From assembly GCA_009843635.1 (NCBI GenBank), contig VYDB01000012.1, positions 1-36,324 on the forward strand: a stretch of DNA of 36,324 nt, given 5' to 3'. The position numbers and the translations under genes are program-made. This DNA comes from Gammaproteobacteria bacterium (GTDB taxonomy: Bacteria > Pseudomonadota > Gammaproteobacteria > Pseudomonadales > Azotimanducaceae). Positions 12,066 through 24,866 of this stretch are shown here, piece after piece (the stretch's first letter is position 1; each line of letters opens with the position of its first letter). The notes beneath the pieces were generated by a model. The model made no database searches and was not told the DNA's origin. It saw only the letters and a list, made by a program, of their open reading frames with translations.

Positions 12066-12854
12066 ATGCTGCGCCTCACCTTTCTGCTGCGCAAGCAGCC
12101 GAACCTGAGCCACGACGAGTTTTACCGGTATTGGCTGGAGGAGCATGGCCCCTTGGTGGCCAGCCATGCCCGGCGGTTGGGTGTGCTGCGCTACGTGCAG
12201 GTGCATACGCTGCGTGACGAGGCGGCGCTCACCGCCGCCGCGGGCATGGCGAAGGCGCGTGGCGGCATGGAGCCGATTTATGACGGCGTTGCGGAAGCTT
12301 GGTTCGAAAGCCGCGCCGCGCTCATGGCGGCATCCTCCCCGGCTGGCCGCGCCGCCGCTGCCGCCTTGGTGGCCGATGAGGCCAAATTCATCGACCTGCC
12401 CAATTCGCCGCTATGGCTCTGTCATGAGTTTCCGCAGGTCAATCCCACACCTGAGAACCTAGTCGCCACGCCCCGCAGCGGTTTGGTCAAGCTCTACTTT
12501 CCGTTGCGCATGAGAACCGACCTGGCGCTTAGCGAGGCCCACGAGTACTGGTACGCCAGCCACGGCCCGCTGATCCGCCGCCAAGCAGCCGGATCCGGCA
12601 TTCTGCGCTACGTGCAGGTCCATCGAGTGCGCGATGAACGGCTCGACGCCGCCTTTACCAGAGCTCGGGGAACGGCGGTCGAGGCCTACGACGGCCATGC
12701 CGAACTCTGGTTCGAGCGCGCTGCCCTAGCTGGATCAACGCCGGAGCAGGTCGCGGCCGGGCGGCGGGCGGTGGCCGACGAGGCCCATTTCATCGACTTC
12801 AAGCGCTCCACCATCTGGCTCGCCAAGGAGCATGTCTTCGTCGATCACCTATAA
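12066..12854 (+). CDS. Tandem EthD-domain protein
   Basis: A 262-residue protein made of two dimeric-alpha/beta-barrel EthD domains fused head to tail (about 1-120 and 135-255). Each repeats the same landmarks: a first strand (RLTFLLRK / KLYFPLRM), then YWLEEHGPLV / YWYASHGPLI, then LRYVQVH twice, a YDG...WFE segment, a DEA(K/H)FID segment, and a final LW/IW motif. EthD proteins usually work as dimers of single domains, so the fusion probably makes a one-chain barrel pair. They often accompany oxidative degradation systems. The ribosome site AAGGAATG lies before the ATG. Confidence 0.82.
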   Translation: MLRLTFLLRKQPNLSHDEFYRYWLEEHGPLVASHARRLGVLRYVQVHTLRDEAALTAAAGMAKARGGMEPIYDGVAEAWFESRAALMAASSPAGRAAAAALVADEAKFIDLPNSPLWLCHEFPQVNPTPENLVATPRSGLVKLYFPLRMRTDLALSEAHEYWYASHGPLIRRQAAGSGILRYVQVHRVRDERLDAAFTRARGTAVEAYDGHAELWFERAALAGSTPEQVAAGRRAVADEAHFIDFKRSTIWLAKEHVFVDHL

Positions 12855-12903: not shown

Positions 12904-12944
12904 GAGTTGCGGAGCAACTCGAACGCTTCGCCGAAGGCGAAGCG
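12904..12944. repeat. Compound palindromic repeat
   Basis: This holds a third copy of the palindrome GAGTTGCGGAGCAACTC (12904-12920), continuing with GAACG as at 10887. It is fused to a second perfect hairpin at 12924-12944 (9-bp arms CGCTTCGCC and GGCGAAGCG around GAA). It is intergenic, between the EthD gene and the selenoprotein gene, about 58 bp before the latter's start. Confidence 0.75.
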
Positions 12945-13001
12945 CGTGTTGCGAACCCAAGACCCAATCTGGAAACTATGCCGACCCAAAGGGAGAAACC
13001 C

Positions 13002-13391
13002 ATGACTGCACCGACGGTTGATTGGTACTACTACCGTAGCGGCTGAACGAGCTGTGCGCGAGCCTCCAAGTTTTTGGAGGCAAGAGGCATCGAAATTGCC
13101 GAAACCGTGCCCGCCAGCCGCAAGCTGCAGCGCGCCGACGCATTGGATTTGTTGAAGAAGGCCAGCCGGGTGGCGGTCGCCAAGGGCCGCAAGCTGACCG
13201 AATTCAGCGGCGACAACATCGCCTCCGATGAAGCCGCAACCGCCATGCTGGGCACGACGGGCAATCTGCGCGCGCCGACCTTGGTGGTTGGGCGGGAGCC
13301 CTCAGCCGGGGAGCGCGAGGGGCTTGCCCCTCGCAAGAAAACACTGTTGGTGGGGTTCAACGAAGCGCTCTATTCCGAGGTTTTCGGCTAG
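13002..13391 (+). CDS. ArsC/Spx-fold selenoprotein (in-frame TGA read as selenocysteine)
   Basis: A 129-residue thioredoxin-fold protein of the ArsC-like family, predicted to be a cytosolic thiol/selenol redox enzyme. The ATG at 13002 has the ribosome site GGGAG. Codon 15 is TGA (13044-13046), placed exactly where the first cysteine of the CxxC motif belongs: RSG-U15-T-S-C18-ARASKFLEARG. The frame then stays open for 114 codons and keeps family landmarks (GNLRAPTLVVG and KTLLVGFNEALY). A SECIS-like hairpin follows the TGA. A 15-residue insert (about 98-112) encoded by a palindromic element splits the expected VVGKTLLVGF. Standard gene calling would miss the first 24 codons and the active site. 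A decayed gene with a nonsense mutation is the alternative, judged less likely. Confidence 0.82.
13062..13081 (+). promoter_or_regulatory. Bacterial SECIS element
   Basis: A perfect 8-bp hairpin: GCCTCCAA (13062-13069), loop GTTT (13070-13073), TTGGAGGC (13074-13081). The loop begins 23 nt after the TGA at 13044-13046, within the 16-37 nt spacing known for bacterial SECIS elements. The required G is in the first loop position, followed by T (U in the mRNA) as in E. coli fdhF. It lies within the coding region, as bacterial SECIS elements do, and would recruit SelB with Sec-tRNA. Confidence 0.82.
13295..13334 (-). repeat. In-frame palindromic element inside the selenoprotein gene
   Basis: A 40-bp element on the minus strand: an 8-bp perfect stem GCGAGGGG/CCCCTCGC with a 4-base loop, followed by a 20-base arm. 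It matches the element in pilW (24720-24758) at all stem bases and 19 of 20 arm bases. The loops differ (CAAG against TTC on the element strand). Here it is read antisense and adds about 15 residues (REPSAGEREGLAPRK) without breaking the frame. Confidence 0.85.
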
Positions 13392-13398
13392 TGAGGCA

Positions 13399-14178
13399 AT
13401 GACGGGAAACCGCTTGAAGGGCTGCGTCGCCATCGTCACCGGCGGCAGCACCGGCATCGGCTACGGATGCGCCAAGGCGCTCGGCGGCGCCGGTGTGCGG
13501 GTGGTCATCACCGCCCGCACCGAAGCCGACGGTCACCAAGCCGAAGCGGATTTCACCGAATTGGGCTTCGACGTGGCCTACATGCCACAGGACGTGGGCT
13601 CCGAGGCTGATTGGGAACGCATCACCGGTGAGACCCTCAAGCGCTTCGGGCGCCTCGACTTCCTAGTCAACAATGCGGGCATCTCCCATTTGAGCCCCAT
13701 TGAGGAAACCCCTGCCGAGACCCTGATGTCGCTGGTGCGGGTCAACCTGATCGGCGCTTACTACGGGCTCAAGCACTGCGTGCCGCTCATTGCTGATTCC
13801 TACGGCAAGCGCGGCTTCCCAGGCATGGCGGTCAATGTCTCCTCGGTCTTGAGCCGTACCGGCCAGGATGGCGCGAGCGCCTACTGCGCGACCAAGGGGG
13901 GCATGGCTGGCCTCAACCGGGCCTACGAGCGGATGCTCGCCGCACAGGCGCACCGGGTGCAGGTCAAGAGCCTGCTGCCGGGCTACACGATGACGCCGCA
14001 GGTGGACAAGGCCATTGGCCGCGATTCGCCGCTCGTCAATCAGCTCGCCGAGACCATCCCTCTGCGGCGTTGGGCCGAACCCGAGGAGATCGGCGACACA
14101 TTGCTGATGATGCTCGATCCTGCCATTCGACTCGAAGACCGGGAGGTGCTCGCCGATGGCGGATTCCTCGCCAGTTGA
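13399..14178 (+). CDS. SDR family oxidoreductase
   Basis: A 259-residue classical SDR: TGGSTGIG cofactor motif (about 14-21), NNAG, NVSS serine region, YCATK catalytic pair, and a PGYTMTP substrate loop before ADGG at the C-terminus. The start ATG lies 7 bp after the selenoprotein stop, with GTGAGG nearby, so the two are likely cotranscribed. Its last 23 bases overlap the start of a second SDR-like gene, suggesting translational coupling and possibly a hetero-oligomer. Confidence 0.87.
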   Translation: MTGNRLKGCVAIVTGGSTGIGYGCAKALGGAGVRVVITARTEADGHQAEADFTELGFDVAYMPQDVGSEADWERITGETLKRFGRLDFLVNNAGISHLSPIEETPAETLMSLVRVNLIGAYYGLKHCVPLIADSYGKRGFPGMAVNVSSVLSRTGQDGASAYCATKGGMAGLNRAYERMLAAQAHRVQVKSLLPGYTMTPQVDKAIGRDSPLVNQLAETIPLRRWAEPEEIGDTLLMMLDPAIRLEDREVLADGGFLAS

Positions 14179-23765: not shown

Positions 23766-24866
23766 GTGCGCCGTGCGCCAAGCCAAGGCCTGTCGTTGGT
23801 TGAATTGCTCCTGGCCTTGGCGTTGGGATTGGTCGTGACCTTGGGATTGGCGCAACAGTACGCTGGAGGGCAGGCCGCGGCCTCGAGCCTCATGGGGCAG
23901 GCTGACGCACAGGACAGCGGGCGCTATGCCCTGGCCTTTCTGCGCCAGTCCGCGGCTGCGGCGGGCAATCTCGGGTGCAATGGCCGCGCCACCCACTTGA
24001 TGAGCGTCCTGAACGGTGACTGGGACGATCTGTTCGAATTCGACCTTTCCCGTCCGGTGCAGGGGTTTGACTACCAGGGCGATGGCGCTTCCGCGGCCCT
24101 TGACGACTGGACGCCGAGCTTGGCGCCCTTGCCCCGACAGGCCAGTGGCGGCACGGTCAACGCCTTGGCCAGTGGTACGGGCATCCGGCTTGAACGTTTG
24201 GCGCCCGGAGCTGACATCATTGTTTTTCGCCGCCTGAAGCAGCCGGCCTTTGCCTTGGCGGCCGGATTGGCTCCGGACGGCGACCCGGTCGTTCAAAACT
24301 CGGCGGGCGGCCGTCTTCGAGCGGGCGATATGGCCCTGGTCAGCGATTGCGAACAGGCAGCGATGTTCCGCATCACCCGCGTCGCTGCGGCGGGCCTAGG
24401 CCAATCCCTGCTAAGGCGCGCCCCAGGCAGCGGGCCGTACGACAACGACGGTGGCCGCAGCCTGTCGGAGTCCGGCCAGCGATACGGCGGCGCTACCCAT
24501 GGCGAGGGTGCGCAGGTCGCTCAGGTCGTGACCGAGATTTACTTTGTCGGCCATGGCGCGGATAGCCGGGAAGCGGGCCTTTGGCGGCGCTCCGGTGCTT
24601 CGCGACCCGTGGAGTTGGTGGCGGGCATCGTTGACTTGCAGGTTTGGGCAGGCGTCGATGGGGACCGCCATGACGGTTTCAATGGCCCCAATCGCTACCT
24701 GCCGTTCAGCGTTCTTCCTGCGAGGGGTTCCCCCTCGCGCTCCCCGGCTGAAGGCTCCTTGGCTGACGATCCGGTGATTCGGTCGATTTCCGTGGCGGTG
24801 ACCGCCACCAGCGGGGATGCCACCCAGCGCTTTGTGCAGACATTGAGCTTGAGAAATGCGGGGTAG
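23766..24866 (+). CDS. pilW: Type IV minor pilin PilW, carrying an inserted palindromic element
   Basis: A 366-residue PilW. The prepilin motif is SQG before LSLVELLLALALGLVVTLGLAQQ. The mid-region (DDLFEFDLSRPVQGFDYQGD, GADIIVFRRL, MALVSDCEQAAMF) and late DPVIRSISVAV match PilW. Codons 319-331 (ARGSPSRSPAEGS) are encoded by the palindromic element at 24720-24758 and interrupt what looks like an ancestral LPxDDPVIRSISV. The GTG at 23766, one base after the pilV stop, is preferred; TTG 23748 is in frame. The 3' end overlaps pilX by 11 bp. Confidence 0.87.
   Translation: MRRAPSQGLSLVELLLALALGLVVTLGLAQQYAGGQAAASSLMGQADAQDSGRYALAFLRQSAAAAGNLGCNGRATHLMSVLNGDWDDLFEFDLSRPVQGFDYQGDGASAALDDWTPSLAPLPRQASGGTVNALASGTGIRLERLAPGADIIVFRRLKQPAFALAAGLAPDGDPVVQNSAGGRLRAGDMALVSDCEQAAMFRITRVAAAGLGQSLLRRAPGSGPYDNDGGRSLSESGQRYGGATHGEGAQVAQVVTEIYFVGHGADSREAGLWRRSGASRPVELVAGIVDLQVWAGVDGDRHDGFNGPNRYLPFSVLPARGSPSRSPAEGSLADDPVIRSISVAVTATSGDATQRFVQTLSLRNAG
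24720..24758 (+). repeat. In-frame palindromic element inside pilW
   Basis: A 39-bp element on the plus strand: the stem GCGAGGGG (24720-24727), loop TTC, stem CCCCTCGC (24731-24738), then a 20-base arm. It matches the inverted copy in the selenoprotein gene (13295-13334) except for the loop and one arm base. Read in this direction it encodes ARGSPSRSPAEGS. The frame of pilW is kept. Confidence 0.87.

Follow-up and report, generated by a model that had tools for sequence, protein, structure and literature searches.

A predicted selenoprotein gene of the NF041106 family with an in-frame palindromic repeat in a gammaproteobacterial genome

Gene structure at the locus

The window analysed here is a stretch of 36,324 nucleotides from the genome of a gammaproteobacterium (contig VYDB01000012.1). 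It contains a frame that runs from an ATG at 13002 to a TAG at 13389-13391, in which a single in-frame TGA occupies codon 15 (Table 1). The sequence AGGGAG ends 6 nt upstream of the ATG, and a GGAG-like 4-mer is located 4-16 nt 5' of the chosen start in 39 of the 44 aligned members of the family described below. Ordinary ORF listing splits the gene, and the sole remnant that is listed comprises 105 residues from TTG 13074.

Downstream of the TGA, arms at 13062-13069 and 13074-13081 form eight perfect pairs around a GTTT loop, with a spacing of 23 nt between the TGA and the loop. The earlier note had described both the ATG frame with its ribosome site and TGA and this perfect 8-bp hairpin, and sequence and translation confirmed them. 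The bSECIS rules quoted in a 2026 review (PMC13188914) are a loop of 3-9 nt, a stem of 4-16 bp, a spacing of 16-37 nt, a G among the first two loop bases and an MFE <= -7.5 kcal/mol. All of these are found here: a loop of 4 nt, a stem of 8 bp, G as the first loop base, 23 nt of spacing and -13.9 kcal/mol for the 27-nt segment. By comparison, 300 synonymous recodings of this segment had a mean of -6.3 kcal/mol, and 11 of the 300 were as stable.

Table 1. Features of the selenoprotein locus, with positions in the window
Feature	Position	Strand	Basis
Upstream neighbour, EthD-domain protein	12066..12854	+	Pfam PF07110
AGGGAG, likely ribosome-binding site	12990..12995	+	Sequence
Predicted selenoprotein gene, NF041106 (ArsC_rel_Se_1) family, 129 residues, Sec15	13002..13391	+	Sequence, translation, NCBIfam
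Predicted Sec codon TGA (U15)	13044..13046	+	TGA=U translation, homologues
Cys18 codon, proposed resolving cysteine of U-T-S-C	13053..13055	+	Column invariant in 44 aligned members
Predicted bSECIS hairpin, 8-bp stem, loop GTTT at 13070-13073	13062..13081	+	Sequence, folding, bSECIS rules
45-bp in-frame palindromic repeat insertion (boundaries +/- a few bases)	13292..13336	+	Congener alignment
Downstream neighbour, short-chain dehydrogenase (SDR)	13399..14178	+	Pfam PF00106

Family membership and distribution

The window protein scored 96.1 bits against the NCBIfam model NF041106, 'ArsC family (seleno)protein' (cut-off 85), and the Sec/Cys position that opens the UxxC motif is filled as U15-T-S-C18. 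All 44 aligned members matched this model at E <= 0.01, with Sec in the first UxxC column in 43 of them and Cys in one. Across 145 genomes, i.e. the window's own and its relatives, 50 places in 49 genomes scored over the cut-off; 49 of these matches had exactly one in-frame TGA, and one (in genome G041) was stop-free. Stop-free matches below the cut-off in 23 more genomes were taken as ordinary ArsC/Spx relatives and not counted, and no match over the cut-off occurred in 14 control genomes. The stop-free gene of G041 (L052) has TGT and reads C-P-A-C, with one extra residue ahead of the motif; it is a natural homologue with cysteine at the Sec position, of the kind that the earlier note had proposed to look for.

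Reading of the homologous genes revealed TGA in 44 of 45. The tblastn search covered 51 loci, of which the distant L058-L062 and L064 gave no hit and L063 proved to be an ordinary relative with a weak match; L039, which has the TGA, was excluded from the alignment because its start codon was not recognised. TGA was also present in 80 of 80 named loci, which are the best 80 of 551 relatives and hence biased towards close, Sec-bearing ones. In two of these (L090 and L140) the TGA column is off register, although their translations nonetheless show U. Many named loci represent the same genomes as the loci from the genome set, and identical 30-mers were counted once. The genome profile search found selA, but no family member, in the congeners G001 and G006. 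In one genome (G082, locus L068) the selenoprotein gene occurs twice on the same strand, at a distance of about 2.2 kb, and both copies have the TGA.

According to their record titles, which may mislead since these loci come from metagenome bins, about 60 of the best 80 of 551 loci belong to Gammaproteobacteria or groups within them. Other titles name Deltaproteobacteria (4), Acidobacteria (2), Myxococcota (2), Planctomycetes (1) and Marinimicrobia (1), and the remaining ones read just Proteobacteria or bacterium. Of 114 aligned residues, the Planctomycetes protein shares 104 and the Marinimicrobia protein 111 with gammaproteobacterial ones. Within this set of 80, the closest loci are L072-L075, and the record of L074 is titled Candidatus Azophilus lithoversatilis.

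The family is already in print. In the 2026 review (PMC13188914), NF041106 appears as 'Arsenate reductase-like protein, UxxC', credited to the Global Ocean Sampling study of 2008 (PMC2398784), where a table lists 'Arsenate reductase 2, cd03032, UxxC' with 42 sequences. ArsC-like selenoproteins, unspecified as to family, were tabulated as early as 2006 (PMC1794560, table entry). The gene is therefore a further member of a known selenoprotein family rather than a new kind, and the novelty implied in the earlier note was overstated. A literature search by title found no functional study of the NF041106 family.

Conservation of the hairpin

Codon choice in the hairpin was strongly skewed compared with the rest of the same 43 TGA-containing genes. 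Ser was encoded by TCC in 32 of 32 cases (13% in the rest of the genes), Lys by AAG in 41 of 41 (50%), Phe by TTT in 34 of 40 (34%) and Leu by TTG in 37 of 43 (14%). Judged from these frequencies, the inner-stem codons are almost fixed even though synonyms are possible.

All 43 segments were more stable than the mean of their own synonymous recodings, whereas only 8 of the 43 individually beat 95% of these recodings, and only 16 of the 43 reached -7.5 kcal/mol on the short 27-nt segment. Among 84 distinct 30-mers from 123 sequences, standard pairs made up 87.9% of the hairpin cells. Column shuffles, which ignore relatedness, gave 82.7% pairing, with 0 of 1000 reaching 87.9%, while sliding the hairpin out of register reduced pairing to 20-47%. 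Compensatory changes, in which both sides changed and a standard pair was kept, were detected at five of the eight pairs. The third pair was standard in just 35 of the 84 sequences and A-A in 39. When the longest contiguous-stem hairpin was selected by the rules, its loop started 22-23 nt after the TGA in 104 of the 123 sequences, and in the other 19 a longer hairpin was situated elsewhere. The recurrence of both the TGA and the hairpin across the family points to more than chance. For the NF041106 family, a deep alignment of Sec-containing members with a strongly constrained SECIS is now available.

Decoding of the TGA codon

The earlier note had proposed a search of the same genome for selA, selB, selC and selD, and all four are present. 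Matches over the cut-off were obtained for selA (504.6 bits), selB (419.7), tRNA-Sec (75.2) and selD (255), and ARAGORN assigned the anticodon TCA to the tRNA-Sec. The first three lie together on contig C116, and selD is on C129. In certain Alphaproteobacteria, selC is nested inside selB, as described in PMC9312934. This arrangement was rejected here, with selC located about 0.6 kb past the selB stop. In the 14 control genomes, matches over the cut-off numbered two for selB, one for selA, five for tRNA-Sec and two for selD.

A selA match was found in 47 of the 48 genomes with a TGA-containing member (over the cut-off in 44; the three sub-cut-off matches are partial, at 90 to 263 bits) and in 40 of the 97 genomes without one (37 over the cut-off). 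The exception, G084, is 87% complete and has a TGA member but no selA match. Over all 145 genomes the association was highly significant (P=1.6e-12). Within the taxonomic family of the window, the co-occurrence was weak because selA is nearly universal there: 47 of 48 versus 34 of 42 genomes (P=0.011), or 44 of 48 versus 31 of 42 for matches over the cut-off (P=0.045).

Other readings of the TGA were considered. Sequencing error was rejected as an explanation for the family, since the TGA recurs in 49 of the 50 matches. If the TGA were a true stop, the locus would hold a pseudogene, or a 105-residue protein that starts at the downstream TTG 13074. An ORF from this TTG does exist, but the TTG falls within the hairpin, and the recurrence of the TGA in 49 of 50 matches speaks against a stop. 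Moreover, W8, Y10, R12, the UxxC columns and much else are invariant across the 44 aligned members, and the frame 3' of the TGA is under purifying selection, with dN/dS of about 0.11 to 0.30 against five same-genus genes when the insert is excluded. Given these invariant columns, the recurrent TGA and the purifying selection, we rejected the pseudogene and the TTG start, which we regard as very unlikely. Reassignment of TGA to another residue in this organism is more improbable still: we found no support for it, the tRNA-Sec with anticodon TCA is at odds with it, and TGA terminates 9 of the 16 Pfam-supported window genes checked. TGA is thus an ordinary stop in these genes and not reassigned, and this reading was also rejected.

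On these sequence comparisons, the in-frame TGA of the gene very probably encodes selenocysteine, and the product would be a selenoprotein. The host SelA, SelB, SelC and SelD would decode the UGA at codon 15 as selenocysteine, and the bSECIS hairpin 23 nt downstream, within the coding sequence, would direct the insertion. Although ordinary ORF listing splits this Sec gene, it is intact by the sequence tests applied here.

An in-frame palindromic repeat

Compared with the same-genus loci L053 and L054, the gene contains 45 extra bases at about 13292-13336, which add 15 residues (98-112) that the earlier note had overlooked. Among the 44 aligned members, the insertion occurs in the window gene only, and the window protein has 129 residues versus 109 to 116 in the other 43. 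The insertion is placed at a beta-hairpin turn, between two beta strands. The NF041106 HMM match stops at residue 99 of the window protein owing to these 15 residues, which are coded by a dispersed palindromic repeat.

A 20-base palindrome in the insertion had 8 exact matches in the genome, and 14 at <=1 mismatch. With <=3 mismatches, a 28-base core of the repeat had 43 matches in the window's genome and was present in eight of the nine genomes of the genus, the window's own among them. Copies are 44-46 bases apart in places, and by the lengths used no ORF spans 5 of the 43. A second copy in the window (about 24711-24755) adds 15 residues to a PilW-like ORF that spans it and is absent in the two same-genus orthologues compared. 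This ORF lies within a pilin gene cluster, and its PilW match is below the cut-off (22.5 bits versus 26).

The repeat is also found in frame within protein genes at other loci of the window's genome (L210, L212, L215, L218, L225 and L226). Nineteen copy-spanning ORFs were picked for length, which needs to be read against long open frames being common at this G+C, and ten of them were scanned with Pfam. Six of these ten had a domain across the copy or domains on either side: DNA polymerase III alpha, an MFS transporter, an ABC permease, a TonB receptor, a KshA-like Rieske protein and an amine oxidase; the congener comparison covers one of the six, DNA polymerase III alpha. In the remaining four, the assignment was ambiguous or the copy probably precedes the true start codon.

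The DNA polymerase III alpha of the genus (L210 on contig C47 of the window's genome, and L239-L246) has a stretch of variable length in its helix-hairpin-helix region. The window's genome has the repeat within this stretch, whereas the whole stretch is absent from G003 and G005. Another palindromic stretch, at 12906-12945 just 5' of the selenoprotein gene, is present in L053 and missing in L054.

We take this repeat to resemble the Rickettsia palindromic elements. It is probable that a repeat of about 45 bp, which is divisible by three and free of stops in most frames, spreads in frame into protein genes of this genus much as those elements do, and that one copy has added 15 residues to a surface turn of the selenoenzyme while leaving it intact. 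Insertions of this kind are seen in the selenoprotein and a minor pilin, and apparently also in further protein genes; they would bear on the origin of new peptide segments in bacterial proteins outside the Rickettsiales.

Neighbouring genes

The genes that flank the selenoprotein gene showed little conservation. Among the best 80 of 551 loci, the EthD query was found near the selenoprotein gene in three and the SDR query was matched in eight, and an operon partner was rejected on these counts. The SDR is directly downstream at 90-97% identity in four loci (L072-L075); the four further matches (L113, L143, L146 and L148) have 24-28% identity, that of L146 lying 345 bases on, on the same strand. 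The same-genus loci L076 and L106 have neither an EthD nor an SDR match, which indicates that the neighbourhood is not conserved even across the genus. Clustering of the ORFs around the gene in the best 80 of 551 loci likewise revealed no widely conserved neighbour.

A nitroreductase ORF (Pfam PF00881) occurs near the gene in 19 of the 80 named loci, e.g. L114, with 17 cluster members within 1.2 kb. Its proximity was taken for shared ancestry of related lineages. No nitroreductase was found among the window ORFs scanned.

Structural model and proposed function

The sequence of L053 served as an insert-free model (mean pLDDT 93, pTM 0.85). In a Foldseek search of the PDB, its top matches were seven Spx chains, the first being 6gho (E 8.3e-5, probability 1.00, TM 0.55 by query), followed by a glutaredoxin, ArsC-related proteins and YffB. 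The model of the window protein itself had a pLDDT of 84, and of about 53 in the block with most of the insertion; it had no PDB match at E <= 0.001, and its best match was again 6gho (E 3.7e-3). A profile search of solved structures ranked 2m46, which was deposited under the name 'Arsenate reductase, putative', first (E 3.2e-8), and Spx after it (1.3e-6). In the profile alignment, U15-T-S-C18 falls on C-T-S-C of Spx with U15 on the first cysteine, in agreement with the earlier note, whose proposal of an ArsC/Spx fold was borne out by profile and structure comparison. The models and alignments thus support a thioredoxin fold of the ArsC/Spx type for the product, and Sec15 would replace the first Cys of C-T-S-C.

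Ala91 is found directly before the conserved Pro, with R90 one residue ahead of it, whereas Spx and 2m46 have Arg at the position of Ala91. In ArsC, an Arg directly before the conserved Pro is arsenate-binding. The family name suggests a selenoenzyme dedicated to arsenate reduction, and such a function would fit the ArsC fold, the name given to 2m46 and the term arsenate reductase-like in the family entry of PMC13188914. It is not readily reconciled with Ala91, arsenate reductases proper rank lower among the fold matches (3f0i, E 0.023), and a Pfam scan of 20 window ORFs found no ars-type family. We consider this function unlikely. Only slightly less doubtful is a redox-sensing regulator similar to Spx, in which Sec would make the switch more reactive. 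Spx provides the top fold matches and shares the x-T-S-C motif, but the match to the Spx/MgsR model TIGR01617 reached 23.1 bits against a cut-off of 75.05, and family invariants such as K41, K61, G62 and T86-G87-N88 would be left unexplained.

By analogy with related proteins, we lean towards a general thiol oxidoreductase of the YffB/ArsC-related type, most likely a selenolate/thiol oxidoreductase that would form a Se-S bond with Cys18. The Sec selenolate may attack an oxidised substrate, which could be a disulfide, a peroxide, a sulfenic acid or a glutathione adduct. Cys18 may resolve the intermediate by forming a selenenylsulfide, and re-reduction by a thiol donor may follow, which would make the protein a fast thiol oxidoreductase.

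Comparison with known systems

The window protein shares its general fold with classical ArsC. Like Spx (6gho, 1z3e) and the YffB/ArsC-related 1rw1, 2kok and 2m46, it is predicted to adopt the ArsC/Spx thioredoxin fold. It has the x-T-S-C at the start of helix 1 in common with Spx, and the conserved Pro and a VGFNE-like strand in common with both Spx and the YffB/ArsC-related proteins. In contrast to Spx, it would carry Sec in place of the first Cys, and unlike Spx and 2m46 it has Ala rather than Arg directly before the Pro. Its own invariants, A38-S39-x-K41-L42, K61-G62 and T86-G87-N88, set it apart from the Spx/YffB group. The arsenate reductase selenoproteins of form 1 (pfam03960), as tabulated in PMC2398784, have the general fold and Sec at the catalytic position in common with this protein, but their motif is UxxS instead of UxxC. 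Compared with other NF041106 members, the window protein passes the same cut-off and has the same UxxC motif and the same place of the TGA.
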